Below are positions 1,118-34,595 of a stretch of DNA of 42,960 nucleotides, piece by piece. The notes under the pieces are model-generated. The model saw nothing but the letters and a program-made list of their open reading frames with translations, was not told the DNA's origin and ran no database searches. The stretch is from a virus. The stretch spans positions 1 through 42,960 of the IMG/VR virus record IMGVR_UViG_3300029449_000005. The stretch is one strand, 5' to 3'. Within the stretch, counting starts at the first letter, position 1. Each line of letters opens with the position of its first letter. The translations under genes were made by a program, and so were the position numbers.

Positions 1118-1153
1118 TGTCCTTTCATAACCATCATCAGGGAGCCATATTTG
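1118..1153 (+). promoter_or_regulatory. Late-promoter-like element 1 (lysis genes)
   Basis: TGTCCTTT at 1118-1125, 2 nt after the tail-tip stop codon, is followed after 20 nt by CATATTTG (1146-1153), one base from the Bacteroidota -7 box TAnnTTTG. The ATG of the first lysis gene is at 1172. One of seven such elements in the genome with the same geometry. Confidence 0.6.
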
Positions 1154-1171
1154 AAATAAAAAGTTTTGAAG

Positions 1172-1408
1172 ATGCAAAACCAGGTACCACGATCTCTCAA
1201 CAAGCTCTATGAACCGGTTGCCGGAATATTGGGCGGAAGCTTTACTGCAGCAGAAGTTACAAAATCCGGTTTCGATTGGCACATGTTACTGTCTCCAGAA
1301 AATCTTAACTATCTAATTATCGGCTCCATTGGTGCCATACTCTTTGCGGTACTGGCTTACCTATCGCGTGTGGCCATGGATGCCATTTTTAAAAGAAAAA
1401 AGCCATGA
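1172..1408 (+). CDS. Small membrane protein, holin candidate
   Basis: 78 residues with one clear membrane helix near residues 45-65 (NYLIIGSIGAILFAVLAYLS) followed by a short basic tail ending KRKKP. A second, weaker apolar stretch near residues 15-25 contains the GILGG segment. Size, helix and basic C-terminus fit a phage holin, and its stop overlaps the start of a peptidoglycan peptidase by 4 bases (ATGA), so the two are translationally coupled as a holin-endolysin pair. No specific holin family is recognised. A TTG at 1166 is an alternative start adding two residues; ATG 1172 was preferred. It is the first gene after late element 1, so it should be expressed late. Confidence 0.6.
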   Translation: MQNQVPRSLNKLYEPVAGILGGSFTAAEVTKSGFDWHMLLSPENLNYLIIGSIGAILFAVLAYLSRVAMDAIFKRKKP

Positions 1409-1785
1409 ATAAACCAGCAAAAACAACAGCACGTTGGTTCAACGAAAGCGAATTTAAAAAGTGCAGTCCCGCCTGTTCATTACAGGATATGCGGCAAAGC
1501 ACAATGGATAAGCTTGATTCTGCCCGCGACATTGCCGGTATTCCTTTGGTGCTTAATTCGGCCTATCGAAGCCCTGCTTACGAAAAAGAAATGAACCGAA
1601 CCGGCACCGGAGCACACCCCGAACGTTGTGCCGTTGACATTAAATGCAACACATCGCGCAATCGGTTTTTGATTGTAGAAGCACTAGTAATGGCAGGTTT
1701 TAAGCGTATCGGCATCGCCAAAACCTTTATTCATGCCGACGATTCGGAAACTCACGACCAGCAGGTAATCTGGTTGTATAAATAA
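1405..1785 (+). CDS. M15-family peptidoglycan peptidase (endolysin)
   Basis: 126 residues matching the M15 (M15_3-like) metallopeptidase fold that cleaves peptide cross-links in peptidoglycan. The segment LNSAYRSPAYE (about 50-60) is the conserved substrate-binding Arg region. GAHPERCAVDI (69-79) supplies the zinc ligands His71 and Asp78, and TFIHADD (107-113) the third ligand His110. It has no signal peptide, so release to the cell wall would depend on the holin candidate whose stop codon it overlaps. Length is normal for single-domain phage endolysins of this family, and there is no separate wall-binding domain. Function as the lysis enzyme is inferred from family and position. Confidence 0.88.
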   Translation: MNKPAKTTARWFNESEFKKCSPACSLQDMRQSTMDKLDSARDIAGIPLVLNSAYRSPAYEKEMNRTGTGAHPERCAVDIKCNTSRNRFLIVEALVMAGFKRIGIAKTFIHADDSETHDQQVIWLYK

Positions 1786-1791
1786 ATTCTG

Positions 1792-1887
1792 ATGATCTAT
1801 TTCTGGACCTATTTAGGCGTCGTTGTTGTGGCTATTGTTGGCACATTGGCCTTGTCTTTCATCGAAATTAAACAACGAAAGAAATGA
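1792..1887 (+). CDS. 31-residue membrane protein in lysis cassette
   Basis: Very short open frame that is almost entirely one membrane helix (YLGVVVVAIVGTLALSFI) followed by a basic tail KQRKK. Its start lies 6 nt after the endolysin stop, and its stop overlaps the ATG of the next gene (ATGA at 1884-1887), which argues for a real translated gene. The arrangement, a tiny helix plus positive cytoplasmic end between endolysin and spanin-like protein, suggests a lysis accessory such as a second holin, antiholin or spanin partner. No family recognised. Confidence 0.6.
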   Translation: MIYFWTYLGVVVVAIVGTLALSFIEIKQRKK

Positions 1888-2138
1888 AAATTCCCTGGAA
1901 AAGCATCGCCATTTATCTGGCTGGTATTATAACCGGATTCCTGGTATTAATCCGTGTAAAGAAACCCGATAAAGTTGTTACTGCAGAAACCTATGTGGAA
2001 GACCAGGAGCAGAAGATTGGCAAGATAAAACAGAAGGGTGAGGGAAATGGGCAGCAAGTGCAACTGGAGCAGGAATTATCCCGGAAGGAGAAACGAGCAT
2101 CCCGGAAAGCTAAACGAAAATCCCGAAAATCGAAATAG
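1884..2138 (+). CDS. Rz/i-spanin-like membrane protein
   Basis: 84 residues: an N-terminal membrane anchor (IAIYLAGIITGFLVLIRV, about 8-25) followed by a long charged, coiled-coil-like tail rich in Lys, Glu and Gln that ends in a strongly basic stretch (KAKRKSRKSK). This is the architecture of inner-membrane spanins (Rz) of phages of Gram-negative hosts, which link to the outer membrane at the end of lysis. It overlaps the preceding 31-residue gene by 4 bases. A partner outer-membrane lipoprotein was not found: there is no lipobox in the neighbouring frames. Function inferred from architecture and position only. Confidence 0.5.
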   Translation: MKIPWKSIAIYLAGIITGFLVLIRVKKPDKVVTAETYVEDQEQKIGKIKQKGEGNGQQVQLEQELSRKEKRASRKAKRKSRKSK

Positions 2139-2142
2139 CCAG

Positions 2143-2177
2143 TGTCCTTTCCCTGCCGGAAAAATTTAAAGAAATTG
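2143..2177 (+). promoter_or_regulatory. Late-promoter-like element 2
   Basis: TGTCCTTT (2143-2150), 4 nt after the spanin-like stop, with ATTG at 2174-2177 in the same relative place as in the other elements. The -7 half (AGAAATTG) is the weakest of the set apart from element 4. The next start codon is at 2224. Confidence 0.45.
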
Positions 2178-2223
2178 AGTTTCAATATTTAACGAAATAG
2201 TTCGATCATTTAATTAAAATGCT

Positions 2224-2658
2224 ATGAGAAATTTATTTGCAAAACTTTTAGTTTTCACACTATTTGTTCTGGTTGCTGGCACGATGCAAGGCATTGCCCA
2301 ACCACAGGCGCTTGATGATCCGCCTCAGTGTTTCATCCAGGACGGCACCGGAGTTGCCGAAATAGTTTTTACAGTTGACGACCTGCAGGGCGAAGAGCAT
2401 TTATATGCATCGCTCAGTTCCGATCCGCAGTACGAATTAGAAGATCCTCCGGCAATTGAAGAAGGAGAATCGTTAGCAGATTACGCAAAGCGAAATTGGA
2501 AGTGGCTGGCAGCGGTGCTCATTTTGCTACTAGAATTTATAGTAAGGCTTACACCCACCGAAAAAGACAATGCCATTCTCTCCAGGTTCCTTGGCATTCT
2601 GGGAACCATCGTACCCAATTTAAAGAAAGGAGGCGGGACACATACCCCGTCCAATTGA
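2224..2658 (+). CDS. Exported membrane protein, unknown function
   Basis: 144 residues. Residues 1-25 are a signal peptide (basic start, FTLFVLVAG core, cleavage GIA|Q with Gln at +1, the Bacteroidetes Q-rule). A periplasmic acidic domain follows, then a membrane helix at about 93-109 (WLAAVLILLLEFIVRL) and a short amphipathic C-terminal segment ending in a Gly/Lys-rich tail. It is the last gene before a strong terminator, so it closes the late transcript. Candidates are a second lysis-related envelope protein, or a lysogenic conversion or superinfection-exclusion factor. No family recognised. The AQ cleavage signature supports genuine export by the host Sec and signal peptidase I route. Confidence 0.65.
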   Translation: MRNLFAKLLVFTLFVLVAGTMQGIAQPQALDDPPQCFIQDGTGVAEIVFTVDDLQGEEHLYASLSSDPQYELEDPPAIEEGESLADYAKRNWKWLAAVLILLLEFIVRLTPTEKDNAILSRFLGILGTIVPNLKKGGGTHTPSN

Positions 2659-2803
2659 CAATAGTTGCCCGGTTGTGGCAAAACCAGAGAGTTTATAATT
2701 GATGTATAACCGGGTTTGTAAATTCAACAAAGCCCTGACCGCAGCGTTGGGGCTTTAAAAGAAACTAGTTTTTTCATAAGTTTAGGTTTGATTAGTTAGG
2801 TTA

Positions 2804-2832
2804 GGCATCCGCTGGGGCGGGTGCCTTTTTTT
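2804..2832 (+). terminator. Intrinsic terminator ending the late operon
   Basis: Stem GGCATCCGC / GCGGGTGCC (one G-U pair) with a 4-nt loop, followed by seven Ts. Its T-tract overlaps the stop codon of the convergent integrase gene. Very similar in sequence to the terminator at 18311-18341. Confidence 0.9.
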
Positions 2833-3964
2833 ATGGCTCCGGAAAAGTCTCAATCAATTTTGAGTTTACAATCGTGCGGATCTTCTTTAAATAAGCATCA
2901 GTGGCTGCAATGGAAGAGTGCCCAAACAAATCGCGAATGTCTTTAACTGTAAACCCTTGCTCCAGTAGTCGATCGGCCGCCGTATCTTTTAGACTGTAAA
3001 ATTTCACTTCGCCCGGAATATTTAAATGAATGGCAATATCCCTGAAATGCTCAGCAATCCGGGTTGAGTATTCGAACAAAACACCAGGCACGAACTTTTT
3101 ACTGCATACATATAAACCTGCAGGTTTGTTTTTAAAATGCACCTTCAGCAATTCAAGAAATGGTTTGGCAATAGGTATAATTCGCTTCTTTTTGTTTTTC
3201 GATTTCCCGGCAGGAACTACCACAACTCCTTTGCTCAACCAAAAATCAGAAATCTTTAAGCGACAGATCTCTGCTGGTCGCAATGCCAGGTAGTATGTGT
3301 ACAGACTGATCACTAAAAAGTCAGGATCGTATTTTCTTAAATAATCAAAATATACAGTAGCTTCTTCCGGCAGGAATGGACGTTTATCAACATCCTGCTC
3401 AGGCATTTTGCTTACTGCATGGAATGGGTTGCTGGTGATGTACTTGTTTTTTATCAGCGTATTAAAGAAACTTCGGTAATCCAACAGGTAGTTATTAAAG
3501 GTTCTGCCTTTGATCTTCCGGTCCGGGATAAGGCTATTCATAAAATCCATGGCATGATCATCGGTAAACTCAAAAATGTATTTCTGCAGCAGCTTTCTTT
3601 TGGTTAACCATTCGCGGAAGATCTTCATCCGGGAATCAAATGAATGCTGAGTTCGTTGGCGGATGTAGAGGTTTTTAAAATCGATAACGAATGTCAGAGC
3701 CTTATCAATGGTTGTGTATTTTTTGTTGTTTTCCTGGTCAACGAAAGGATTTTTACCATTATCAAGCAAGCCATTAATATGGTCGATCAGCTTTTTAGCG
3801 TGCCGGTCGCGTGTGCGCTTATCCTTAATGTGATCGATGTAGATCCTTTTACGCTTTAACTTAAATTCGTCTGATGTTGGATCCTGGGCAGCGAAATATA
3901 CATAGTCGCGTGTAGATCCTGTTGATCGTTGAGCATAACGAAATGGTAAATTAAATCCCCTCAT
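2831..3964 (-). CDS. int: Tyrosine recombinase (integrase)
   Basis: 377 residues from the ATG at 3964; a TTG two codons upstream is also open. The architecture is that of phage tyrosine integrases: a basic N-terminal arm-binding region, an SAM-like core-binding domain near 85-185 and a catalytic domain from about 195. Visible catalytic positions: Arg near 229 (LALRPAEICRL), a Lys in the beta-hairpin (AGKSKNKK, about 252-260), GHSS with His near 349, and the nucleophile Tyr near 358 (TDAYLKK). The usual HxLRH motif reads YSLKDT, so His becomes Tyr and the second Arg becomes Lys. I have the impression such variants occur in Bacteroidetes elements, but it needs checking. It should integrate the phage at the attP lying just upstream (4005-4198). 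Confidence 0.93.
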   Translation of the reverse strand: MRGFNLPFRYAQRSTGSTRDYVYFAAQDPTSDEFKLKRKRIYIDHIKDKRTRDRHAKKLIDHINGLLDNGKNPFVDQENNKKYTTIDKALTFVIDFKNLYIRQRTQHSFDSRMKIFREWLTKRKLLQKYIFEFTDDHAMDFMNSLIPDRKIKGRTFNNYLLDYRSFFNTLIKNKYITSNPFHAVSKMPEQDVDKRPFLPEEATVYFDYLRKYDPDFLVISLYTYYLALRPAEICRLKISDFWLSKGVVVVPAGKSKNKKKRIIPIAKPFLELLKVHFKNKPAGLYVCSKKFVPGVLFEYSTRIAEHFRDIAIHLNIPGEVKFYSLKDTAADRLLEQGFTVKDIRDLFGHSSIAATDAYLKKIRTIVNSKLIETFPEP

Positions 3965-4026
3965 AACCAAGAATTTAACTTCAATGCTTCAACCTGTAAA
4001 ATCCGTGGCGCACTTGTGGCGCACCT

Positions 4027-4055
4027 AAAACAAGAAAACCAGTCTAATTGACTGG
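4027..4055 (-). terminator. Minus-strand terminator behind the tRNA-like core
   Basis: CCAGTC / GACTGG (4039-4044 / 4050-4055) with a 5-nt loop. Read on the minus strand it is followed by TTTTCTTGTTTT. It sits about 23 nt beyond the CCA end of the tRNA-like core, so after integration the restored host tRNA would be followed by this phage-borne terminator. Confidence 0.6.
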
Positions 4056-4078
4056 CTTCCTTTGAGTTCCGTAGAACT

Positions 4079-4098
4079 TGGTAGCGGGAGCAGGACTC
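4079..4098 (-). other. attP core: 3' end of a tRNA gene
   Basis: TGGTAGCGGGAGCAGGACTC reads on the minus strand as the end of a tRNA: second half of the T-loop, T-stem 3' strand CCTGC, acceptor strand TCCCGCT, discriminator A, then CCA. The tRNA-like pattern stops at 4098, where a host gene would continue into the rest of the T-arm. Phages that integrate into tRNA genes carry exactly this kind of 3' fragment. The tRNA identity cannot be fixed from 20 bases; the acceptor sequence is compatible with initiator tRNA-Met. Confidence 0.7.
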
Positions 4099-4323
4099 TC
4101 CATATATTTTTGCCATATCTCTAAATCAATTAGTTAACTACTCTGTAACGGGTGTATTTTGCCTGTTTGTGGCGCAGAACTGGCGCAGTTCCGGCGCAAT
4201 AAGATTTGGTCTACTAAGTGTTTATATATCTGCAACATGTTCATATTCATGGATTAATTCATACTATACGATTAAGCTTGCCGAAAAGGATTTTCCACTT
4301 TTCTAAAAGGATTCGTTTCCTTT

Positions 4324-4803
4324 TCAACTACCGGTTGCGGATTTTTCCACGCCACCCTCAGATGACTTTCCGTTGTCCAAGCCTCCCCTCGCTAACTGAG
4401 CTCTAAGCAAGTTATTGTAATCAATCAACAACTGTTTGTCTTGCTCTAGCTCTGATATGCGTTTGAGGCAGCTAGGGTTATCACAGTGTTCAACGGGTGA
4501 CATAGTTTCTGTGTAATCTCTATTGGGTTCATTGGCTGTGTCCTTAATTTTTTGTATGCCTGGGTATTTCTCTTTGAGAAATCGTTCGTCGCCGGTGAGG
4601 TAATAATTTGTGTTGAAATGAGGAAATTTTTTCACAACAGCCTCTAAAAGATCTATACCAGGCTTTCCGTTTTCTTCACGGTCCAGCCTTTTGATATTTT
4701 GCGATCTTGCATATCCAAGTGCATTTGCAAATTGATTAGCATTTTTGTAACCTTCTGATTCCCAAAATGCTTTTAGCCGGTCGTAATAAATATTAACTCC
4801 CAT
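4324..4803 (-). CDS. Helix-turn-helix lysogeny repressor
   Basis: 159 residues. The N-terminal 75 residues look like an XRE/CI-type DNA-binding domain (LKAFWESEGYKNANQFANAL, then ending NTNYYLTGDERFL, a common final-helix pattern in Bacteroidetes phage repressors). Residues 112-138 form a coiled coil (CLKRISELEQDKQLLIDYNN) suitable for oligomerisation. There is no S24 autoprotease domain, so induction cannot work by RecA-stimulated self-cleavage as in lambda CI. It is divergent from the early genes, and the two palindromes at 4818-4853 in the 88-bp divergent gap are the obvious operators. Role inferred from domain and position. Confidence 0.75.
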   Translation of the reverse strand: MGVNIYYDRLKAFWESEGYKNANQFANALGYARSQNIKRLDREENGKPGIDLLEAVVKKFPHFNTNYYLTGDERFLKEKYPGIQKIKDTANEPNRDYTETMSPVEHCDNPSCLKRISELEQDKQLLIDYNNLLRAQLARGGLDNGKSSEGGVEKSATGS

Positions 4804-4817
4804 AGAAAAAATCTATA

Positions 4818-4853
4818 GCACATATATGTGCATTTATTTGCATATATGAGTGC
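4818..4853. promoter_or_regulatory. Tandem repressor operators O1 and O2
   Basis: O1 GCACATATATGTGC (4818-4831) is a perfect 14-bp palindrome. O2 GCATATATGAGTGC (4840-4853) shares the GCA...TGC ends at the same length but is imperfect. They are 22 bp apart, two helical turns, so two dimers would sit on one DNA face. O2 lies inside the spacer of the rightward early promoter and O1 next to the repressor start codon, so binding could shut off early transcription and autoregulate. Confidence 0.65.
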
Positions 4854-4869
4854 AATTGTCTTACATTTG
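4837..4869 (+). promoter_or_regulatory. Early rightward promoter
   Basis: TTTG (4837-4840), 21 nt, TACATTTG (4862-4869), matching the Bacteroidota -33/-7 consensus. The spacer contains operator O2. Predicted start about 20 nt before the ATG at 4892. TTGTCTGACAA (4867-4877), a short palindrome over the -7/+1 region, may be a further site. Confidence 0.7.
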
Positions 4870-4891
4870 TCTGACAAGATAATAACAAACA

Positions 4892-5086
4892 ATGAACGTA
4901 ACAACAGCAAATAGGATGAAGTTTCTCGCCAAAGGAGGCAAAGCAAAATACGATGTAAGACTTCAGGAGTCGTTAAAAGAAGAGGCTATAAGAGTAGCCA
5001 CCGAACAAGGAATTGATTTATCGGATTTTACGCGCCATGCACTCGTTGAGAAAATTGAGCGAGATACAGCTGCTGTTCCTGCATAA
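4892..5086 (+). CDS. Small ribbon-helix-helix-like protein
   Basis: 64 residues, the first gene of the early operon. The segment KYDVRLQESLKEEAIRVATE followed by GIDLSDFTRHALVEKI resembles an Arc/CopG ribbon-helix-helix unit (one strand, two helices). By position opposite the repressor it is a candidate Cro-like or early regulator, possibly acting on the same control region. The N-terminus before the strand is short and basic. The family call is by pattern only. Confidence 0.6.
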   Translation: MNVTTANRMKFLAKGGKAKYDVRLQESLKEEAIRVATEQGIDLSDFTRHALVEKIERDTAAVPA

Positions 5087-5094
5087 AAAAACAA

Positions 5095-5133
5095 AAGCCC
5101 GGATCGATGGTGCTGTAACACCTCCCCGGGCTT
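5095..5133. other. Nested stem-loop after first early gene
   Basis: Outer stem AAGCCCGG / CCGGGCTT (5095-5102 / 5126-5133) with an inner stem GGTG / CACC (5109-5112 / 5119-5122). On the + strand no T-tract follows. On the minus strand it is followed by TTTTGTTTTTTT, a good terminator in that direction. It may block antisense transcription towards the switch, or act as an attenuator in the early leader. Confidence 0.5.
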
Positions 5134-5147
5134 AAATCATAAGATTT

Positions 5148-5714
5148 ATGGAAACAAAATTAGTTAAAAGAAACAAACTGGCCATTATCCCGGCCGGAAT
5201 TATTGAAGGGATAGAAGCGTTCTCTTACAACAATGAAAAGTGGGTAGCTGTAGATGGCGAAGTAACACCTTACCATGAAGCACCAGGGCGAATTCAGCGA
5301 ATGATTGCCACAGCTTTTTTAAACGACAAACGAAGCAGAAACTACCTGGAGAAAGAAATGGGTATAACCGGCTTTCGGGAAGGATTTGAGTGGTGGTACC
5401 ACTGCGTTGTAGGAGCGCTCGACAATGTTCCCGATTTTGTAAAAGGCAAATTTACTGCTGATGGTTATAACCATAACTGCACAAAAATGGATTGCATTCA
5501 CCGTGGGAAATTTTGCAGTAGAGCAACCGGATTAAAGTATTACGAAATAGCAACCATTAACGCGCTAAAACTGGGCTTATCGGTTGAAAAAACAGCACCA
5601 CTGTTAAACATTTCAGTGGCAGGTTTAAAAAGCCGAATACAGTTGCTAAAAGAAAAACTGGACGCAACCAACGAAAGAAGTTTAATGGCCAACGCGGCCG
5701 AATTGGGGATATAG
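5148..5714 (+). CDS. Early regulator: Cys cluster plus LuxR-type HTH
   Basis: 188 residues. The central Cys/His set (Cys111, Cys116, His118, Cys123 in NHNCTKMDCIHRGKFC) could bind zinc. The C-terminal part (about 130-170, YYEIATINALKLGLSVEKTA then LLNISVAGLKSRIQLL) reads as a LuxR/GerE-like helix-turn-helix, where SVAGLKSRI would be the recognition helix. It lies second in the early operon and is followed by a terminator-like hairpin, so it may control delayed-early or replication genes. I have a general impression of similar proteins in Bacteroidetes prophages but cannot name the family. Confidence 0.6.
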   Translation: METKLVKRNKLAIIPAGIIEGIEAFSYNNEKWVAVDGEVTPYHEAPGRIQRMIATAFLNDKRSRNYLEKEMGITGFREGFEWWYHCVVGALDNVPDFVKGKFTADGYNHNCTKMDCIHRGKFCSRATGLKYYEIATINALKLGLSVEKTAPLLNISVAGLKSRIQLLKEKLDATNERSLMANAAELGI

Positions 5715-5781
5715 CAGGAGAAGAGGGAGGCAACAAGAAGAAGGGTTAAAGTTGAAATTTAGTTGAATTGATAATCCAGAG

Positions 5782-5809
5782 AAAAGGGACCGGCCTCCCG
5801 CCCTTTTTT
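5782..5809 (+). terminator. Terminator-like hairpin after early regulator
   Basis: AAAGGG / CCCTTT (5783-5788 / 5801-5806) with a 12-nt loop and a continuing T-run, 68 nt after the regulator stop codon. The loop holds GGCC, so alternative pairing is possible. Confidence 0.6.
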
Positions 5810-5847
5810 AAACAACGTTCTAGCATATACTTCTAGTGCAAATATAT

Positions 5848-5887
5848 CCCGGGAGATGTAACTCCGGCCACAATACCGGCTCCCGGG
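5848..5887. other. GC-rich nested dyad in the early leader
   Basis: CCCGGGAG (5848-5855) pairs with CTCCCGGG (5880-5887), and inside it CCGG pairs with CCGG (5864-5867 / 5876-5879). It lies in a 308-bp gene-free stretch (5715-6022) between the early regulator and a tiny membrane-protein gene. The stretch also has weaker pairings (GTCTGC / GCGGAC and GCCGG / CCGGC) but no convincing reading frame. Could be a structured leader, a small RNA or a binding site. Confidence 0.45.
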
Positions 5888-6022
5888 TTTGCAAAAAATA
5901 TTACGTCTGCAGTGACGCGGACAGTGTGAAGGAGAGGAACAAAGCTGCCGGGGCCACAACAGTTAAACTGACGATACACATTCTCAGGCTCCGGCCGGCT
6001 TTAAATTCAAAAAACTACGAAC

Positions 6023-6133
6023 ATGGAACAAGGAAAAAGCAAAGCTCACTATAAAACAAGTGCCATTCTGTTTGCCGCTTCGTGCGTGGGAATCCTCATA
6101 ACACTGGTTGTAATCTTAATTCAGAATTTTTAG
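6023..6133 (+). CDS. 36-residue membrane protein
   Basis: Short frame with a hydrophilic basic start (MEQGKSKAHYKT) and one long membrane helix (AILFAASCVGILITLVVILI). It has a good A-rich leader (ACTACGAACATG) and is followed 31 nt later by a strong terminator. Tiny early membrane proteins in temperate phages often affect superinfection or host physiology; nothing more can be said here. Confidence 0.5.
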   Translation: MEQGKSKAHYKTSAILFAASCVGILITLVVILIQNF

Positions 6134-6164
6134 AGTAATTAATAAATACTTCAATGCTACAACT

Positions 6165-11528: not shown

Positions 11529-11747
11529 GTTCCAAAAGTTCCAAAAGTTCCAATATGCATAAATTATTGATTATTAAATTTTTAACAACAAAAAACAATG
11601 GAACACAAACCAACATTAAAAGTTCCAAAAGTTCCAAGTGGAACGAATGGAACGCAATGGAACAAAATCAGTTTTTAAAAGTTCCAGACGTAAAAAATTG
11701 ATAAACAGGCTAATTACACAAAAAAACAGCCTTGGAACTTTTGGAAC
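11529..11747. repeat. Iteron-like GTTCCA array, candidate origin
   Basis: GTTCCA occurs six times on the + strand (11529, 11538, 11547, 11622, 11631, 11681) and its complement TGGAAC six times (11599, 11639, 11648, 11658, 11733, 11742). Within clusters units are 8-10 bp apart, and the first three form exact 9-bp tandem repeats GTTCCAAAA, GTTCCAAAA, GTTCCAATA. AT-rich segments (11556-11598, 11664-11730) separate the clusters. It lies in the gap after the primase-helicase gene. A 26-residue frame (11598-11678, KVPKVPSGTNGTQ) runs through part of it and could also generate the pattern. Confidence 0.6.
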
Positions 11748-14403: not shown

Positions 14404-14436
14404 TTTGCTGGCTGTTAGCGTTTGTTTTTATCTTTG
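14404..14436 (+). promoter_or_regulatory. Promoter for the last early genes
   Basis: TTTG (14404-14407), 21 nt, TATCTTTG (14429-14436): a full Bacteroidota consensus with the same spacing as the early promoter at 4837. The predicted start is at or within a few bases of the ATG at 14441, so the mRNA may be nearly leaderless. The spacer contains the inverted cassette motif GTTAGCGTT. Confidence 0.7.
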
Positions 14437-14749: not shown

Positions 14750-15259
14750 ATGAGCATTGATTTCAGCACAAAACCAAAAGTTACCGTTCACCTCGATCCG
14801 GTTCACGAAGCTTACTGCCGGTACATTTTTTCAACTCCGCCAAAACAAAAGGAAATTGTTGTTTCCAGGCTTCACGATATTGGCAAGCTTATCCATTCTA
14901 ATGTTTTGGCCAGAGACCTTCCCATACATCGGCCTTTTATTGATAATGCAGTTACCTTTATTTTGCCAGTGAACCCAAAGAACCAACATGCAATATTGAG
15001 GCATTTTCTTCATTGCAGTAAGTGGGGCGAACAGAAAATAGCTGATGGAATTGAATTTGAATTTAAAAGTTGGGTTCGCCGCAGGTTTGAGTTGGGGTAT
15101 GAGCAGAAATTGGATCAGAAAGAAATTGTGGAAGCAATTTTGAGAGGTTTAAACCTAAGGACCAATGCAGCAAATTTCGACACAATTAAAAAAATTGACT
15201 ACCGAAACCGCCGAAGAGTTGAAGAAAAACGGTTTAAATCATTGCTTAGTGATGTGTAA
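14750..15259 (+). CDS. Hypothetical protein, candidate late regulator
   Basis: 169 residues, last gene before the virion genes, a position where phages often place their late activator. Not recognised as a family. The C-terminal half is basic and helical (EFKSWVRRRFELGYEQKLDQ, KEIVEAILRGLNLRTNAANF, then KKIDYRNRRRVEEKRFKSLL), plausibly DNA-binding. The N-terminal half is mixed alpha/beta. If the TGTCCTTT elements are activator-dependent late promoters, this is one of two reasonable activator candidates; the other is the gene at 5148. Confidence 0.55.
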   Translation: MSIDFSTKPKVTVHLDPVHEAYCRYIFSTPPKQKEIVVSRLHDIGKLIHSNVLARDLPIHRPFIDNAVTFILPVNPKNQHAILRHFLHCSKWGEQKIADGIEFEFKSWVRRRFELGYEQKLDQKEIVEAILRGLNLRTNAANFDTIKKIDYRNRRRVEEKRFKSLLSDV

Positions 15260-15740: not shown

Positions 15741-15776
15741 AGTCCTTTATTTAGCCCCATTCGCGCCTTAACATTG
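15741..15776 (+). promoter_or_regulatory. Late-promoter-like element 3 (capsid genes)
   Basis: AGTCCTTT (15741-15748, one mismatch), 20 nt, TAACATTG (15769-15776). Gene start at 15802. The -7 box overlaps the left arm of a palindrome whose right arm contains the start codon. Confidence 0.6.
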
Positions 15777-15804
15777 TATAGTACATTAATGTATTTATAC
15801 AATG
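15772..15804. promoter_or_regulatory. 33-bp near-palindrome containing a start codon
   Basis: CATTGTATA (15772-15780) pairs with TATACAATG (15796-15804), whose last three bases are the ATG of the prohead protease gene. The centre TACATTAATGTA is itself a perfect palindrome. A shorter parallel occurs at the tape-measure start (31441-31476). Confidence 0.55.
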
Positions 15805-18342: not shown

Positions 18343-18377
18343 TGTCCTTCATTGGTAATTACCGGGGCGTTAACTTC
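18343..18377 (+). promoter_or_regulatory. Late-promoter-like element 4 (packaging genes)
   Basis: TGTCCTTC (18343-18350, one mismatch) with TTAACTTC ending at 18377 in the same relative place as ATTG in other elements. It follows a terminator directly, so a new start here is needed. Next gene starts at 18404. Confidence 0.5.
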
Positions 18378-18403
18378 AAATCAAGAATTTTAAAACAAAT
18401 ATT

Positions 18404-20483: not shown

Positions 20484-22083
20484 CGATCCGCAGCTGGAGT
20501 TTATGTACACCGGCGCACATACCTCTGTTATTGCCGGTGGTAGACGATTGGGGAAATCGCATGGTTTTGCTGCTCCGTTTGGTTTGAGAAACACCCAGGC
20601 AATGCCGCGATCCACGGGTGGCATTGTTGGAAACACATTTCAACAGTTGCTGGCCAGAACGCTTCCGGGAACACTTCAAGCCCTGGAACAAATGGGCTAC
20701 AAACGTGATTTGCATTTTTACATTGGCCACCGGCCTCCAAAGAACAGCAACTTTGCAAAACCAATTATAGATCCTCCAAGCTATGAACATGCAATTATCT
20801 GGTATAACGGAACTATATGGCGCCTGATCAGTCAAGACCGTGCAGGAACTTCCAATTCATTAACGCTGGACTGGTTAATGCTGGATGAAGCAAAGTTCCT
20901 GAAGTTTCAAAAGCTTAAAGAGGAAACATTCCCTGCCAATGGAGGCTTTAAAGGACACTTCGGAAATAATCCCTGGCATCATGGAATGCTAATTATTTCC
21001 GACATGCCCACTACAAAGGATGGATCCTGGTTTCTCACATACAAAGAGAAACAAGATCCGGAGTTGATTGAAACTATCCACAGCCTGATCTATGAGCGAT
21101 GGGAAGTTAAGCAGCGCATGAAGCTGGATCCAAAACCATATCATGCAACCTATTTGCGCGAACTCGATATTGCCCTGGCTAAATTACGATCGATAGCCGT
21201 TTATTATCGTGAATGGTCAAGCATTGAAAACCTTTTATTACTTAGCGAACGATACATTAAACAGATGAAGCGAGATCTTCCGCCACTGGTATTTCAAACC
21301 TCCATACTCTGCAAGAAGTTGAAAAACCAACGAGACAACTTCTATTCTGCACTGCAGGAAGGAATTCACTACTATGATGCGTATGATAACAGCTATTTAG
21401 ATAGTCTGGACTACAACTACCAGGATAAGGATAACAATTGCTTACAAGATGGTGATGTGGACAGAGATCGCCCTATCTGCATAGCATTCGACTACAACGC
21501 AAACATTAACTGGCTGGTTGCCGGTCAGCGAAGTGGAATAAAAATGCTCACACTAAAAAGCTTTTATGTGAAGTATGAGCGCAAGATAAGGGAACTGGTA
21601 CAAGACTTCTGCACTTATTACAAACACCACAACAATAGAACTGTTATCTATTACTACGACAATACAGCCCTCGGTACCAACTACGCTGTTGGCGATGATG
21701 ACTTTGCTGCAGTGATCTGTGCAGAGTTTGAACGCCTGGGCTGGTCCGTTGATCGGGTTCACCTCGGAAACCCTGTTCCCCATCGCGACAAACACCGCAT
21801 GATACACCAGGCTCTTAAAGGCCAGAAGTATCTTATGCCGATGTTTAATAAATCCAATAACGAAGCACTTCTTTTGGCTCTTGAAAATACCGGAGTCCGC
21901 ATATCTACAAGAGGTTTGCAAAAGGATAAATCCGGGGAGAAACTTGGAGAGTCCGAAGAAGATCTTCTCGAACATCGTACAGATGGAACTGATGCCTGGG
22001 ACACGCTGTTCATTGGCATGAATAAGTTCCCAATCAACGACGAACACGACGACAGTATCATTAGTATCTTTCAGAACGGGTAA
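20458..22083 (+). CDS. terL: Terminase large subunit
   Basis: 541 residues. ATPase: Walker A GGRRLGKS (27-34) and Walker B LDWLMLDEA with Asp143/Glu144. Nuclease (RNase H fold): first Asp in CIAFDYNANINWLV (about 345), second in YYYDNTALG (about 401), third in DGTDAWDTL (about 512-515). Domain order and length are typical for tailed-phage packaging motors that pump DNA into proheads through the portal. Unusually, it follows the capsid genes, and the portal gene lies about 3.9 kb further on beyond an accessory island. A strong hairpin follows at 22224. Confidence 0.92.
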   Translation: MTRKKIYYNDPQLEFMYTGAHTSVIAGGRRLGKSHGFAAPFGLRNTQAMPRSTGGIVGNTFQQLLARTLPGTLQALEQMGYKRDLHFYIGHRPPKNSNFAKPIIDPPSYEHAIIWYNGTIWRLISQDRAGTSNSLTLDWLMLDEAKFLKFQKLKEETFPANGGFKGHFGNNPWHHGMLIISDMPTTKDGSWFLTYKEKQDPELIETIHSLIYERWEVKQRMKLDPKPYHATYLRELDIALAKLRSIAVYYREWSSIENLLLLSERYIKQMKRDLPPLVFQTSILCKKLKNQRDNFYSALQEGIHYYDAYDNSYLDSLDYNYQDKDNNCLQDGDVDRDRPICIAFDYNANINWLVAGQRSGIKMLTLKSFYVKYERKIRELVQDFCTYYKHHNNRTVIYYYDNTALGTNYAVGDDDFAAVICAEFERLGWSVDRVHLGNPVPHRDKHRMIHQALKGQKYLMPMFNKSNNEALLLALENTGVRISTRGLQKDKSGEKLGESEEDLLEHRTDGTDAWDTLFIGMNKFPINDEHDDSIISIFQNG

Positions 22084-22223
22084 TTACCTATACCCACGCA
22101 CTATCCGACACACCGCCGCCGCTGTTTAGAATTATTCTAAAACAGCAGGCATATAACACGAAATTCGGGGCGAGGTAATTACTTTTTCGCTCAGGGCGGT
22201 GCGGGGTCAACTCCTTGACAGAG

Positions 22224-25665: not shown

Positions 25666-25700
25666 TGTCCTTTCTCCTCCACGCTGTCCACTCTATATTG
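25666..25700 (+). promoter_or_regulatory. Late-promoter-like element 5 (portal operon)
   Basis: TGTCCTTT (25666-25673), 20 nt, TATATTG (25694-25700). Next gene start at 25754. Between lie two direct copies of AGCTCGCGGCT (about 25713-25738) and an AAAAGCTTTTTT stretch. Confidence 0.65.
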
Positions 25701-25753
25701 CTGGCATATTAACAAGCTCGCGGCTCGTAGCTCGCGGCTAAAAGCTTTTTTAT

Positions 25754-29487: not shown

Positions 29488-29552
29488 GCTCTTTCTCCCC
29501 ACTTGGGGGGAGATGCCGGCGTAAGGAACGTGGGCAGGCTGGTAGAGGGGGT
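29488..29552. repeat. REP-like palindromic element, copy A
   Basis: CTTTCTCCCC...GGGGGGAGA hairpin, a second dyad TGCCGGCG...CGTGGGCA, and an ending GAGGGGGT. Most diverged of the three copies (see 34623 and 36232). It lies between two genes. Elements of this design are common in intergenic regions of Bacteroidetes chromosomes. Confidence 0.6.
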
Positions 29553-29564
29553 AATTCTTTGAGT

Positions 29565-29996
29565 ATGCAAAAAGAATGGAATAAACGCGAAACAATTGCT
29601 GCCTGGGCGGATATTACCCTTAAAATTTGGCAGGAAAAAATAACCGAGCTCAAAGTTTGGGAAACAGGAGCACTGTACGAAAGCCTTAAAAATACCCTGC
29701 TGGGTATGGCCGGTAACGATGTAGATAAAATCGAGTTCTCGTTTAAGCTGTATGGAATTTTTGTTGATATGGGGGTGGGTAAAGAGATCTTCCGCGGTAA
29801 CGATGGCGACCTGGGCGAAACTCCGATTCGGAAACGAAAAGAATGGTACAGCCGTATTTTCTACCGCGAAGTAATGCGCCTGCGCGAAATACTTATGGAG
29901 AAATTTGGAGAAGAAGTGGCGCGCCAGGTCGTGTTTGCCATGAAACCGGTAAAGGATTTTAAGTTGGAACACGCGCGAGGACAGTTAAATATTTAA
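29565..29996 (+). CDS. gp10-like head-tail / tail completion protein
   Basis: 143 residues from the ATG at 29565; an in-frame TTG at 29559 would add two residues. VWETGALYESLKNTL, then FSFKLYGIFVDMGVGKEIFR and RKRKEWYSRIFYREVMRLRE match the pattern I know from HK97-gp10-like proteins of Bacteroidetes phages (alpha/beta with an FVDMG turn). These join the tail to the head. The REP-like copy A occupies the space just upstream of its start and may influence translation. Confidence 0.6.
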   Translation: MQKEWNKRETIAAWADITLKIWQEKITELKVWETGALYESLKNTLLGMAGNDVDKIEFSFKLYGIFVDMGVGKEIFRGNDGDLGETPIRKRKEWYSRIFYREVMRLREILMEKFGEEVARQVVFAMKPVKDFKLEHARGQLNI

Positions 29997-30070
29997 GAAC
30001 AAGTTTGTACTTTAAATGTTAAAAAAGGTAATAGAATCTTAATAACATATTACTAATAAATAATTTTTCA

Positions 30071-30078
30071 TAGATTTG
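30071..30078 (+). promoter_or_regulatory. Possible promoter -7 box of the moron
   Basis: TAGATTTG matches TAnnTTTG, 54 nt before the start at 30132. No TTTG/TTG is at the expected -33 distance, so only half a promoter is seen. An independent promoter would fit the moron nature of the next two genes. Confidence 0.35.
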
Positions 30079-30131
30079 TCAGACAACATTGCTTTAACAA
30101 ATAAACCATTCATTATTAAATAGAACCCAAA

Positions 30132-30308
30132 ATGTCAAATCACGAAAAAAATCAACAAAAAGAATTTTTTGCAATTTTAGAGGAAGCTCAAAAAGAGTAC
30201 GAAGACTTGCATCAAATTAACTGTTTAAGTGACATTGTTACTGAAACAGAAGTTGAAGATTATTCTCAAAGAAATTTCTCTCACCCTGTTGATCTTGTTA
30301 TCATGTAA
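30132..30308 (+). CDS. 58-residue acidic protein of moron
   Basis: Starts MSNHEKNQQKEFFAILEEAQ and ends with FSHPVDLVIM. Acidic, Gln/Glu-rich, probably helical. AT-rich codons like the protease gene that follows 40 nt later, and both are flanked by spacer and terminator, so they form a two-gene insert. Could be an immunity, partner or regulator protein for the protease. No family recognised. Confidence 0.6.
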   Translation: MSNHEKNQQKEFFAILEEAQKEYEDLHQINCLSDIVTETEVEDYSQRNFSHPVDLVIM

Positions 30309-30348
30309 GATTAATAAATACTTTATTTTCCCACTAAACTCAAAACTT

Positions 30349-31371
30349 ATGCCTTCCTGGAATCAAATTTTAGACAAACTAAACTCGTTACATGACCCAT
30401 TAAAACAAGACATATGGGTTAAAAAAACAATCAAAGAGACTTTTTCTGCAATTAGCAAATTACGATCAGATCGTAATGTTATATTTTATAGCTCTGCATA
30501 TATGCAGAAGCCGGGAATCAATCCATACGTAGTTCAAATAAATCCGGAAGATATGAATGGATTTATGACGAATATTCATGGTTTGACATGTGAAAAAGGA
30601 CTTACTTTAATACTCCACACTCCTGGAGGTATAACAAATGCAGCAGAAACAATTATTGATTATTTGCATAGGAAATTTGATTATATAGAGGTAATTATTC
30701 CAACATTCGCAATGTCTGCAGGAACAATGATTAGCTTGTGCTCTCATAAGATAATCATGGGTAGACAAAGCCAAATGGGGCCTATCGACCCACAATTACC
30801 TGTAAATGGAAATAGGTATGCGTCTGCATTGTCAATTAGAAACCAATTCCTGAGGGCACAGAATGAAATCTTGGAGAATAAGGATAATGCTCATGTATGG
30901 GCCCCTATTCTTCCTTCTCTCGGACCGGCATTATTACAGGAAGCCGAAAATGCTATTTCTTATGGAGAGGATTTGGTTAAACAACGTTTAATGACGACGA
31001 TGTTTAAAGGTAATCCAGATGCTGAAAAGATCGCAAGTACAGCTGCTAATTACTTTAGCCAGTGTGAGAAAAACACAAGTCATGGAAGACGGATCAACCG
31101 AGATGAAGCAAGGAGTCAAGGGATTATAATAGAGGATCTGGAAGATGATCAGAACCTTCAGGAATCGGTTATGACTCTCTATCATTTAATTACTGTTCTA
31201 TTTGAAAAAACACCTGCGGCAAAAATCATAGCAAACAGTAATGGTAATAATTGGGTAAAGAATGTTTCTATGCCAAATCAGATGCAACAAATTATTCCTC
31301 AGAATATTCGAAAACCAGGAGATAATCAATTTCGAAAACCTGGATTCAATCAACAACATCGAAGGAGATAA
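30349..31371 (+). CDS. ClpP/SDH-class serine protease (moron)
   Basis: 340 residues from ATG 30349; the frame is open 40 codons upstream but overlaps the 58-residue gene and was rejected. TLILHTPGGITNAAETIIDY (86-105) with the oxyanion TPGG, then FAMSAGTMISL with nucleophile Ser123, and SQMGPIDPQL (141-150) are hallmarks of the ClpP/crotonase fold, SDH_sah/SppA-like group (PF01972). The C-terminus is basic and Asn/Gln-rich. No signal peptide or membrane helix is seen. A soluble protease inserted between tail genes is not needed for virion assembly, so it is probably a lysogenic-conversion, defence or host-takeover gene. Confidence 0.78.
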   Translation: MPSWNQILDKLNSLHDPLKQDIWVKKTIKETFSAISKLRSDRNVIFYSSAYMQKPGINPYVVQINPEDMNGFMTNIHGLTCEKGLTLILHTPGGITNAAETIIDYLHRKFDYIEVIIPTFAMSAGTMISLCSHKIIMGRQSQMGPIDPQLPVNGNRYASALSIRNQFLRAQNEILENKDNAHVWAPILPSLGPALLQEAENAISYGEDLVKQRLMTTMFKGNPDAEKIASTAANYFSQCEKNTSHGRRINRDEARSQGIIIEDLEDDQNLQESVMTLYHLITVLFEKTPAAKIIANSNGNNWVKNVSMPNQMQQIIPQNIRKPGDNQFRKPGFNQQHRRR

Positions 31372-31375
31372 TATC

Positions 31376-31407
31376 AAATGGCTCGTAGTTTACTACGGGC
31401 CATTTTT
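31376..31407 (+). terminator. Intrinsic terminator of the moron
   Basis: AAATGGCTCGTAG / CTACGGGCCATTT, a 13-bp stem with a 4-nt loop (one G-U pair), followed by Ts. Separates the moron from the tape-measure transcript; late element 6 starts 11 nt later. Confidence 0.92.
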
Positions 31408-31417
31408 ACTCTAATCT

Positions 31418-31452
31418 TGTCCTTTTAAACCCACACCCCACATTGTACATTG
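31418..31452 (+). promoter_or_regulatory. Late-promoter-like element 6 (tape measure)
   Basis: TGTCCTTT (31418-31425), 20 nt, TACATTG (31446-31452). Start codon at 31474. It follows a strong terminator, so a fresh start is required. Confidence 0.65.
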
Positions 31453-31476
31453 CTTCAGTTAAGCATAAGTACAATG
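31441..31476. promoter_or_regulatory. Dyad containing the tape-measure start codon
   Basis: CATTGTAC (31441-31448) and GTACAATG (31469-31476), with inner GCTT / AAGC. The last three bases are the start ATG. Same outer sequence as the dyad at the prohead-protease start (15772-15804). Confidence 0.5.
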
Positions 31477-34400
31477 GCAAACATTAACGAAGAAGCAAGA
31501 ATCCCGGTTTACCTGAACGACGAGCAGGCAGTTGCCGCTATGAAAAATCTGCAAAACGAAGCAGATAAGTGGCGCAAAAAAATGCACGAAGCAATGGCCG
31601 GTGGCGACATGAAAGGCATGAAAACTGCCGAGCGCGAAATGAAGAAGGCAAACAAAGAAGCTTCGAAACTCCGGAAAGCTGCTTTCGATACCAATAAGGT
31701 ACTTAATAACCTTTCATCGGCATCATATAAAGATCTTCGCCAAACCTTGCGTACACTCACCCGCGAGCAGGAACAATTCAACCGCAAAAGCAAACAGTGG
31801 AAAACACACCAGAAAAACATTCGCCTGGTACGTGCCGAAATGAAAAAGGTTAATGGTGAGCTTCAGGCGCATGGTTCGTGGTGGGGAAGAGCAGCCAATG
31901 GCTTCAATAAGTATTTTGGTATCGCTACAGCCGGAATCGCCGCACTTACCGGAATTGCATTTTCAGCAAAAGAATGGACCAAAGGACTGGTTGGCCTCGA
32001 TGATCAGCTGGCCGATGTAATGAAAACAACCGGCTTAACCCGGAAAGAAGTTCGCGGACTTTACGACGATTTTAAATACCTGAATACCCGCACACCACGC
32101 AAAGAATTATTGTTACTGGCTGAAGAAGCCGGGCGATTGGGTATTAAAGGAACAAAGGATATTGCCAGCTTTGTTGAAGTGGCCAACAAAATAAAAGTTG
32201 CCCTGGGCGATGATCTTGGAGGTGAAAGCGAAAAGGCCATTCGCGAAGTTGGTAAACTGGTAGAGGTTTACAAAGTGGGCAACCAATACGGAACCGAGTT
32301 TGAAGTTAGCCTCGAAAAAGTTGGATCGGCCATTAACGAAGTTTCTGCAAACAGTAATTCGCAAGCTGAATTCCAGATCGGATTTATGAAGCGAATGGGT
32401 GGAGTAAGTCAGCAGGCAAGAATATCTGCAGCCGATATTTTAGGTTATGCCAGTACGCTCGACCAGTTGGGGCAATCTCAGGAAATGTCGGCAACAGCTA
32501 TGGGTAAAACCATTATCAGCATGTTTAAGGATACAGGCGAGTATGCTGCTATTGCCAAAATGGAAGTGGGCGATTTTACCGATCTGTTAAACACCGATGC
32601 CAATGCCGCATTTTTAGCTGTACTTGATGGATTAAACGGAAACAACGAAGGACTTTCTGTTATGGCAGGCAAGCTCGACCAGCTGGGCATTGATGGATCG
32701 AGAGCTGTTCAGGTGCTGGCCGCATTATCTTCCAACACCCAAATGGTGTACGAACAGCAGGGACTTGCCAACAGAGCAATGGAAAAGGGAACATCGCTGG
32801 CTAACGAGTACAACGTAAAAAATAACAATCTGGCAGGTAGTATGGATAAAATTGGTCGTGCCATACGTGCCAAGTTTATCAACTCAGGGTTTCTTGGATG
32901 GATGGAGAAAGTTGTGGCAAAAGCATCGGAGTGGGTAGAAGTGCCAATCCAGGAAAAAATTAAAAAGGAATCGCTGGAAGTGAACCAGCTGGTGATTGAA
33001 ATGACCAATGCCAACACAACCGCCGAGCGCCGGAATGAGATCTACACACAACTAAATCAAATTGCTCCTGATGTAGTAAAAAATATCGATCTTGAAAATA
33101 TCAGCGTTTCCAACTTGCGCGAGAACCTGGAGAAATACAACGAGGCCATGATTAAAAAGCTGGCTTTGCAAGATACAGAAGACAATCTGCAGGATAAACG
33201 TGAAGCAGCGGGGAAAGCCACCGGAACCAGGATTGAAAAAGAAAGCCAGTTGATAACCGAGTTTATTTCGATAAAGCAACAGGCCGACAAAATGAATAAA
33301 GATTATGCCGACACCCTTCAGGAAGTAATATTGTCTGATGACGATGTGATTACTAAAACAGAGCGTATTAATGAGTTACTGGAAGGACAGCGTCATTTTT
33401 ACCGCACCAACATGGAGGTGGTGACCAATGAGGTAGTTTCTGCTCGCGAGAAAGAAAAAGCAGCGCTGGATGAAGTTAACCAGGCATTGGATGAATACTC
33501 GCAGAGATACGAAAGGCTATTTGGAGCAGGGAAAAGCGGTTCGGGTACCGGAGGAAATGCCGGTGGCGGATCCGGAACTGGAGGAAATACCGGTGGAGGA
33601 AGTGGTTTTAGCAGTCCAGGTTCTGGCAGCCAGGGAGGGTTTAATTTCGAAGAGGCCACAGAAGATCCCCTTGCAGTAGAGGGCTGGATGACCAACGACA
33701 AATGGGACACCTATGGCGCCGAAGAATTAGCAGCAAGGCAAGCCAGCGAGGAAGAATGGACGCAATTTTTAACCAGCGAAATACAGAAAAGGATTGATGC
33801 CGAGGCAAAGGCCTTGGGAGTTGAACAGGAAATTGCCGAGGCGCGCAGGGAGATCAACAACACGTTAATTGAATCGACCGGACAAGTAGCCAGTTCGCTC
33901 GCAGGAATGTTTGAGCAGGGATCGACCTGGCAAATTGCGTTTATTGCGATGGAAAAAGCAGCCGGTATTGCCAAAATCTGGATTAATTACGCCAAAGAGG
34001 CATCAGCTATTAATCTTGCTGCAGCAGAAATTAATGCCGTTACTTTTGGTGTTGGAGGAACGGTGTGGGGCGCGGCACAGCTAGCCAAAGCAAAAACTTC
34101 AGCAATTGCCAACACTGCAATAATTGGTGCGCAAACCGTTGCATCGATAGCCAGCTCGGGTAAACGCAAAAAAACACAAGCCTATGCCGAAGGTAAATAT
34201 CCCGGAGTACAAACCGGCACCTACGGCGACCGCCCACATTATGCCTTGTTTAACGAGGTTCCCGGATACCCCGAAATGGTTGTTGATGGCCGCACATTCA
34301 AAACCATGCAAATGAATTACCCCGAGCTGATAAATGCTATTTACCGGATTCGCGATGGTAAACAGCCCGGTGGTTATGCTGATGGTAAATATGAGGATGG

Positions 34401-34560
34401 AGGTGTAAACCTTACACAACCTTACACACAAACCATCGACGTTGACAAATTCGACAAAGCAGTTACCCGTCTAGAGAATATGAAGCTGTCATTCTCATAC
34501 GACAAATTCGAAAAACTAGAAAAAGAATACAAACGCCAGCAGCAAGGATCGGGCATGTAG
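31474..34560 (+). CDS. Tail tape-measure protein
   Basis: 1028 residues from the ATG at 31474; an in-frame TTG at 31450 is less likely. Domain order: coiled coil (about 1-130), a hydrophobic segment (about 148-165), the TIGR01760-like tape-measure core (VGLDDQLADVMKTTGLTRKE, then LLLLAEEAGRLGIKGTKDIA), long helices, a glycine-rich linker near 688-722, and a C-terminal hydrophobic stretch (about 840-892). It sets tail length and is ejected at infection; its length implies a long non-contractile tail. No tail assembly chaperone frameshift pair was recognised upstream. Confidence 0.9.
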   Translation: MANINEEARIPVYLNDEQAVAAMKNLQNEADKWRKKMHEAMAGGDMKGMKTAEREMKKANKEASKLRKAAFDTNKVLNNLSSASYKDLRQTLRTLTREQEQFNRKSKQWKTHQKNIRLVRAEMKKVNGELQAHGSWWGRAANGFNKYFGIATAGIAALTGIAFSAKEWTKGLVGLDDQLADVMKTTGLTRKEVRGLYDDFKYLNTRTPRKELLLLAEEAGRLGIKGTKDIASFVEVANKIKVALGDDLGGESEKAIREVGKLVEVYKVGNQYGTEFEVSLEKVGSAINEVSANSNSQAEFQIGFMKRMGGVSQQARISAADILGYASTLDQLGQSQEMSATAMGKTIISMFKDTGEYAAIAKMEVGDFTDLLNTDANAAFLAVLDGLNGNNEGLSVMAGKLDQLGIDGSRAVQVLAALSSNTQMVYEQQGLANRAMEKGTSLANEYNVKNNNLAGSMDKIGRAIRAKFINSGFLGWMEKVVAKASEWVEVPIQEKIKKESLEVNQLVIEMTNANTTAERRNEIYTQLNQIAPDVVKNIDLENISVSNLRENLEKYNEAMIKKLALQDTEDNLQDKREAAGKATGTRIEKESQLITEFISIKQQADKMNKDYADTLQEVILSDDDVITKTERINELLEGQRHFYRTNMEVVTNEVVSAREKEKAALDEVNQALDEYSQRYERLFGAGKSGSGTGGNAGGGSGTGGNTGGGSGFSSPGSGSQGGFNFEEATEDPLAVEGWMTNDKWDTYGAEELAARQASEEEWTQFLTSEIQKRIDAEAKALGVEQEIAEARREINNTLIESTGQVASSLAGMFEQGSTWQIAFIAMEKAAGIAKIWINYAKEASAINLAAAEINAVTFGVGGTVWGAAQLAKAKTSAIANTAIIGAQTVASIASSGKRKKTQAYAEGKYPGVQTGTYGDRPHYALFNEVPGYPEMVVDGRTFKTMQMNYPELINAIYRIRDGKQPGGYADGKYEDGGVNLTQPYTQTIDVDKFDKAVTRLENMKLSFSYDKFEKLEKEYKRQQQGSGM

Positions 34561-34595
34561 TGTCCTTTCTGCCATGGCCACGAAATATAATATTG
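34561..34595 (+). promoter_or_regulatory. Late-promoter-like element 7 (distal tail)
   Basis: TGTCCTTT (34561-34568) directly after the tape-measure stop, 19 nt, TAATATTG (34588-34595). The next start is at 34691, with REP-like copy B (34623-34674) in the leader; without it the spacing would resemble the other elements. Confidence 0.6.

Follow-up and report, generated by a model that had tools for sequence, protein, structure and literature searches.

How does a temperate phage of Bacteroidota turn on the genes for its head, tail and lysis together? Bacteroidota dominate the human gut and their RNA polymerase uses unusual promoters, and our literature searches turned up neither a late promoter nor a late activator described for their temperate phages. 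The question is raised by the IMG/VR virus record IMGVR_UViG_3300029449_000005, whose positions 1 to 42,960 (all 42,960 nucleotides analysed here, hereafter the window) hold a temperate phage with an integrase, a cI-like gene, an early replication region and late genes. Seven copies of a two-part sequence element stand before its late genes. We consider it quite probable that these are the late promoters of the phage, and that the 169-residue protein encoded at 14750-15259 is most likely their activator, in cooperation with the host sigma factor. A family of viruses whose hosts are gut, oral and environmental Bacteroidota appears to share this two-part switch for head, tail and lysis genes; it is probably read with the help of the viral protein, which had not been recognised before. 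Newly described here are the spacer of exactly 20 bases, the gene of the candidate activator and a predicted hairpin nested in the main promoter.

A two-part element with one register

The element reads (A/T)GTCCTTY-N20-TAnn(n)TT(G/C). Its first boxes lie where the initial annotation of the window, made from the sequence, had placed them: TGTCCTTT at 1118, 2143, 25666, 31418 and 34561, AGTCCTTT at 15741 and TGTCCTTC at 18343. That annotation let the second box end 35 or 36 nucleotides after the first base of the motif. The fixed spacing stands, whereas the two lengths are in fact one register: the second box, best read as TAnnTT(G/C) or TAnnnTTG, starts after a gap of 20 bases behind the first 8-mer in all seven copies.

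Exact TGTCCTTT occurs seven times on both strands against 2.1 expected, and none of 100 shuffled sequences reaches seven. Two of the seven are intragenic minus-strand copies (16135 and 20950) without a proper second box. The first box with one mismatch is not enriched by itself (46 against 52.6); the signal is therefore the exact box together with its partner at fixed distance. Such pairs are found five times on the plus strand at N20, the shuffles having a mean of 0.47 and a maximum of 2. Scored with a matrix for which only 29 elements of other phages were used in training, six of the window copies reach 16.6-22.4 bits, and every other site on either strand stays at or below 11.6. The copy at 18343, with 11.1 bits, is supported despite its low score, because the variant box TGTCCTTC, with the palindrome GGTAATTACC in its spacer, stands at the orthologous place before the packaging operon in two related records, R1 (= G001) and R2 (= G002), and box and palindrome are kept at the orthologous site in loci L043, L047 and L054 too.

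The placement described by the annotation was recovered as well. Copies begin 0-6 nucleotides past a stop codon, or past a terminator, and each precedes a late operon or, at 2143, the gene of an exported protein. Among the top matrix matches no plus-strand site falls within 4.8-14.7 kb, in agreement with the claimed absence from the early region. The early promoters were said to use TTTG and TAnnTTTG; strict TTTG-N17..23-TAnnTTTG has just two plus-strand matches, one at 4837 before the early operon and one at 14404 before the operon of the proposed activator. The element is common to several late operons of one phage, and its early operons are without it.

Position directly after stop codons and terminators, with hairpins near several copies, might also be expected of an RNA signal (put/nut-like antitermination) or of a processing site. 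It is extremely improbable that the element is such a signal and not a promoter, since gut phages carry canonical TAnnTTTG boxes, in L035, L045, L056 and L061 the second box is followed after 3-5 nucleotides by a start codon, in agreement with leaderless starts, and the exact N20 comes without conserved spacer structure, several loci having no hairpin.

Conservation in related and named phages

Relatives with the same gene order, among them phages of Porphyromonas gingivalis and Bacteroides thetaiotaomicron, keep the element at the same places and with the same spacing; this is the opposite of the loss of the motif that the annotation had named as its counter-case. R1 and R2 have portal proteins 66-70% identical to that of the window. 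All three phages share the head-protease box AGTCCTTT; the element upstream of the portal gene has orthologues at R1 21938 and R2 20951 (second box TATCTTC), and that of the tape measure at R2 26482. Although their spacers have diverged, there are always 20 bases between the boxes. R2 bears three further TGTCCTTT-N20 elements within its final 4 kb. Phages with dissimilar capsids have the element too, for example the window and L035. In L035, AGTCCTTT-N20-TAATATTG precedes the protease gene and TGTCCTTT-N20-GACATTC follows a tail-tube-like gene.

Capsid tblastn gave no match among named phages, which were reached through divergent homologues of the candidate activator. Such homologues exist in 18 P. 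gingivalis phage records and in B. thetaiotaomicron phage BT-TP2 (L193), with the same gene order where inspected. In P. gingivalis phage029a, elements at 11715, 20583 and 28072, all N20, precede the prohead protease, the portal region and the tape measure; phage032a and phage019b (ATCC 49417) have a similar layout. BT-TP2 contains four elements (about 6521, 10591, 17977 and 25811), the last of which precedes the tape-measure gene and has a canonical TAnnTTTG box.

Among the late promoters, just the second has a palindrome (GGTAATTACC, TGTAATTACA, TTGCAATTGCAA or GGTAATTGCC) in its spacer, at a similar place across phages; it is carried by the window (18354-18363), R1, R2, L043, L047, L008, L012, L035 and BT-TP2 (10591); related spacer palindromes were seen in L008, L012, L015, L035, L057, L061 and BT-TP2. 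GGTAATTACC occurs again where the terminase gene ends in the window (22079-22088) and R2, and just past this gene in R1. Possibly, the spacer palindrome is an operator for a further regulator.

A candidate activator of a new family

The gene at 14750-15259 lies just upstream of the head genes. Homologues of its product are 54-73% identical in phages sharing the element, and distant ones (8-25%) occur in other Bacteroidota phages. A pairwise search of 20 related records found it in exactly R1 and R2 (56-60% identical). The L035 protein is 73% identical to that of the window, and the capsids of these two phages have no direct match. An alignment-based search yielded 20 viral loci and three loci in metagenome-assembled genomes of Bacteroidota (Prolixibacteraceae, Salinivirgaceae and an unplaced Bacteroidetes). 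The inspected loci run from the activator gene through a single small gene and the element to the protease gene. In a sample of Bacteroidota genomes the gene was present in 4 of 396, one of them already known; of the three new loci, one has a candidate element and one is ended by the contig end. Absence of the activator from the capsid relatives L008-L031, suggested by pairwise search, was discarded as a sensitivity artefact, because an iterated profile found homologues in nearly all of them.

No family in Pfam, NCBIfam or PHROG matches the group, and none of its 43 homologues matches the activator families Ogr/Delta, Mor/C or ArpU/RinA in Pfam or NCBIfam. Structure prediction from the single sequence reached a predicted local distance difference test score (pLDDT) of only 55, whereas the AlphaFold model built from a 43-row alignment has a pLDDT of 93.6 and a predicted template modelling score of 0.85. 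The model has a small alpha/beta N-terminal part followed by three C-terminal helices, of which the last is basic and best conserved (KKIDYRNRRR, with invariant Arg152); helices 123-133 and 140-167 may form a helix-turn-helix. A fold search of PDB gave no match (best E 1.3), and the sole match in PDB and viral fold searches is a protein of the isolate Polaribacter phage Leef (E 4e-4). The BT-TP2 homologue, gp8 (XPO95538), was deposited as 'transcriptional regulator', and we found no paper, function or target for it in the literature. It is like the 14750 protein in homology and gene order, and differs in that its role comes from annotation alone.

Sigma factors typically recognise two fixed boxes that are rigidly spaced, so a phage-encoded alternative sigma could read the late promoters. 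Its candidate would be the open reading frame 5148-5714, a 188-residue early protein with a weak sigma-like C-terminal helix-turn-helix (phrog_3282, E 0.047). We hold this very unlikely: a homologue exists in only one of 20 related records (24% identity) and is absent from R2, which keeps the elements, and the gut-clade -7 box is identical to the host sigma consensus. The reading frame was dropped as a regulator for its poor conservation. Nor does the 14750 protein contain sigma-70 region 2 or 4 domains by Pfam, NCBIfam or PDB fold search.

Spacing and co-occurrence with the candidate activator

In 44 non-redundant homologous loci, of which 18 were fetched by motif and are not independent evidence, NGT[CG][CT]TT[TC] followed by a -7 box was found 43 times at N20 and once at N23; the reverse strand of these regions has it twice, at any spacing. 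Among the 26 loci chosen without the motif, 25 bear the element at N20, 0.4-0.6 kb downstream of the activator gene. In the lone exception, L001, box and N20 are present, but the second box is TATCTCTG.

A scan of IMG/VR for AGTCCTTT-N{16,24}-TAATATTG points in the same direction. Among the 120 matches listed, 22 of the 29 with N20 encode the activator, and of the other seven, four are located no further than about 430 bases from a locus end; at other spacings the activator is found in none of 91. A cluster at N17 (36 among the matches listed) was rejected as a promoter, being mostly one coding sequence. When the scan was repeated for the form found in clade B, AGTCTTTT..TAAAGTTG, it revealed the activator among the matches listed in three loci, all N20, and at other spacings in none of 101.

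Box variants follow the candidate activator

One clade of capsid relatives uses the one-base variant AGTCTTTT and another AGTGTTTT, matching the activator phylogeny. The box core is GTCC in clade A, GTCT in clade B (L008-L018) and GTCT or GTGT in the gut clade, whose -7 box is the canonical host TAnnTTTG; the window clade has TAnnATTG or TAnnTT(G/C). On a maximum-likelihood tree of 47 activator proteins the core changes twice, which is the minimum, and 0 of 200 shuffles are as low. Capsids of the window and L008 are 61% identical and their cores differ (GTCC and GTCT), whereas the window and L035, with closely related activators and unmatched capsids, both have GTCC. The box tracks the activator, not the capsid. 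The dependence on an activator that the annotation held probable fits the results.

Host sigma-ABfr promoters combine a -7 TAnnTTTG with a -33 TTTG, and the length of their spacer varies (PMC7366714). The second box resembles them in its TA..TTG core and in its distance to -33; the element differs in having GTCCTTY for TTTG, as the annotation's altered -33 element implied, and a spacer fixed at 20. It shares the -7 box of this class, but not its -33 TTTG and variable spacing. Could these nevertheless be ordinary host-sigma promoters, or promoters of a host alternative-sigma class (SM5, TAnnTTGY), with GTCCTTY as a favoured -33 sequence and no phage activator? TAnnTTGY is a described motif of Flavobacterium psychrophilum, at -12 to -5 (PMC9723704), and -33 elements of Bacteroidota are weakly conserved. 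We judge this unlikely, because the host spacer varies in length while here it is exactly 20, the core follows the phylogeny of a phage protein, most of the N20 matches listed carry the activator gene, and this phage has TTTG before its early operon.

A predicted hairpin nested in the putative head promoter

The head promoter overlaps an inverted repeat that begins with the TTG of the -7 box; the 3' arm of the repeat is placed at the start codon or immediately in front of it. Head-promoter stems have on average 10.1 pairs, against 6.9 in shuffles. Predicted folding of read-through RNA gave a mean z of -2.8 for 48 head promoters and -0.93 for 162 control gene starts (Mann-Whitney p 2e-8). At least six pairs span the predicted transcription start, placed by the -7 box at -12 to -5 (PMC9723704), in 44/48 head promoters and 88/162 controls. 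The late RNA predicted from head promoters is almost unstructured. The tape-measure promoter of the window has the same nested design.

T4 genes e, soc and I-TevI are silenced by a hairpin in early read-through RNA and have an internal late promoter. The predicted folding shows the T4-type layout: the hairpin is whole in read-through RNA, broken in late RNA, and has the start codon in or beside its 3' arm. Both systems have a hairpin hiding the translation start, with the late promoter within or ahead of its 5' arm; here, in contrast, the -7 box itself is in the 5' arm, no Shine-Dalgarno sequence is involved and a terminator-like T-run follows in some phages.

As far as the hairpin part is concerned, the inverted repeat might instead be a DNA operator for a repressor or for the activator. 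It surrounds the predicted start site, a common position for operators, and GGTAATTACC-type palindromes occur in the spacer of the second promoter. We find an operator possible though rather doubtful, as the arm sequences are wholly different among phages (ATTGTATCC, GTTGCAGTGT, GCTTGTTATG, ACGACAGATTCTT) while pairing persists, the 3' arm follows the position of the start codon, and a terminator-like T-run lies behind the repeat in clade B, as also in L042.

In the head promoters of L035 (1614-1653), L045, L056, L057 and L061 an ATG stands at the predicted transcription start, which suggests that the protease mRNA is leaderless; leaderless mRNA is rare in Bacteroidota. Elements of the type TGTCCTTT-N20-TACCTTTG or TGTCCTTT-N20-GTACCTTTG were also seen in three other IMG/VR loci (L389, L390 and L336), where the -7 box pairs with AAAGGTATTTTT just before the ATG in the same nested terminator-like hairpin.

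Proposed mechanism

We propose that a host housekeeping sigma of the sigma-ABfr type reads the second box as its -7 element, either TAnnTTTG or, one base shorter, TAnnTTGY, and that GTCCTTY at -33, exactly 20 bases upstream, would stand in for the host TTTG. The canonical host promoter at 14404 would drive the 14750-15259 protein, which most likely binds the first box or remodels sigma to recognise it, so that the seven late promoters would jointly fire the operons for lysis, head, packaging, portal and tail. At the head promoter, and at the tape-measure promoter of the window, the -7 box would double as 5' arm of a hairpin, and the 3' arm would overlap or adjoin the start codon. This should silence RNA that reads through from the early operon upstream, or terminate it where a T-run follows, and RNA from the late promoter, starting inside the repeat and lacking the 5' arm, should remain translatable. 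For the full proposal we see about even chances: a new-fold activator family across Bacteroidota phages overrides the -33 specificity of the unusual housekeeping RNA polymerase of the phylum at a rigid 20-base spacing, and the main promoter is nested in a start-codon hairpin, which in some phages is a terminator, one 60-base sequence being both late promoter and lock on premature head-gene read-through.

Several points weigh against this interpretation, beside the motif-based choice of part of the 44 loci. We infer promoter activity, protein-DNA contact and the hairpin effect from sequence. Two copies, at 2143 (GAAATTG) and 1118, have a poor -7 box. No recognised DNA-binding domain was detected in the activator by sequence or fold search. 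The hairpin is weak or absent in clade C and several other phages, and some control starts fold too. A third scan, TGTCCTTT-N{16,24}-TACCTTTG, supports the spacing, with 42 matches at N20 and 3-21 at each other spacing among the matches listed, but the activator gene is absent from the fetched stretches of the N20 loci listed. Finally, since the activator gene and the head promoter are neighbours, inheritance as a single block might explain part of their co-occurrence; the specific spacing and the co-variation of the boxes speak against this.

The proposed cascade resembles T4 MotA/AsiA, P2 Ogr/Delta, Mu C and phi29 p4 in combining a host-like downstream box with a phage-specific upstream box at fixed distance, and in having an earlier-transcribed activator gene and several late operons under one box. 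It differs from them by an activator without a Pfam, NCBIfam or PHROG family or a PDB fold match, and by an RNA polymerase of Bacteroidota type. Occurring in cultured B. thetaiotaomicron and P. gingivalis phages, the system is directly testable. A family of hypothetical proteins gains a proposed function and target site, the element offers a sequence signature for marking late operons in metagenomic phages, and it is a possible inducible, orthogonal promoter for Bacteroides genetics.

Other features of the window

Table 1. Genes, putative promoters and inverted repeats of the window
Feature	Position	Strand	Basis or remarks
Putative late promoter, lysis cassette	1118..1153	+	TGTCCTTT-N20-CATATTTG; 17.0 bits, independent matrix
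Lysis genes	1166-1785		holin-like 1166; endolysin 1405, PHROG 894 / Peptidase_M15_3
Putative late promoter before exported protein (2224)	2143..2178	+	TGTCCTTT-N20-GAAATTGA; 17.0 bits, independent matrix
Integrase	2831-3970	minus	
cI-like gene	4324-4803	minus	
Canonical host-type promoter of activator operon	14404..14436	+	TTTG-N21-TATCTTTG
Candidate late activator, 169 residues	14750..15259	+	homologues in phages sharing the element; no known family
Putative late promoter, head operon	15741..15776	+	AGTCCTTT-N20-TAACATTG; N20 in 43/44 non-redundant homologous loci
Inverted repeat, -7 region pairs with head-protease start codon (ATG 15802-15804)	15772..15804	+	folding z -2.5; nested hairpin predicted in most relatives too
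Head protease	start 15802		PHROG
Capsid	16744		homology and position
Putative late promoter, packaging operon	18343..18378	+	TGTCCTTC-N20-TAACTTC; GGTAATTACC palindrome in spacer
Terminase	20458		PHROG 2
Putative late promoter upstream of portal operon	25666..25701	+	TGTCCTTT-N20-TATATTGC; orthologous copies in R1, R2, P. gingivalis phages
Portal	25975		position and weak match to P. gingivalis phage portal, E 1e-4
Putative late promoter, tape measure	31418..31453	+	TGTCCTTT-N20-TACATTGC; orthologous in R2, P. gingivalis phages, BT-TP2
Inverted repeat, -7 region pairs with tape-measure start codon (ATG 31474-31476)	31441..31476	+	-13.3 kcal/mol; arms CATTGTAC / GTACAATG
Tape measure	31450-34560		PHROG, PhageMin_Tail
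Putative late promoter, distal tail	34561..34596	+	TGTCCTTT-N20-AATATTGC; 16.6 bits, independent matrix
Distal tail genes	34691 onward		

Adjoining the integrase, positions 4050-4105 resemble the complement of a tRNA 3' part (TGGTAGCGGGAGCAGGACTC) and are likely the attP core. Between the neck genes and the tape measure lies a gene for a ClpP-like SDH-type serine protease (30229-31371), followed by a terminator; it has no match in R1 or R2 and is probably a cargo gene. A dyad-rich intergenic repeat (cccctccagggggaaatgtccgaaggacaaagggg, 34640-34665) separates the promoter at 34561 from its gene. In BT-TP2, a reverse transcriptase gene past the tail-fibre region (40959-42254) likely belongs to a diversity-generating retroelement.

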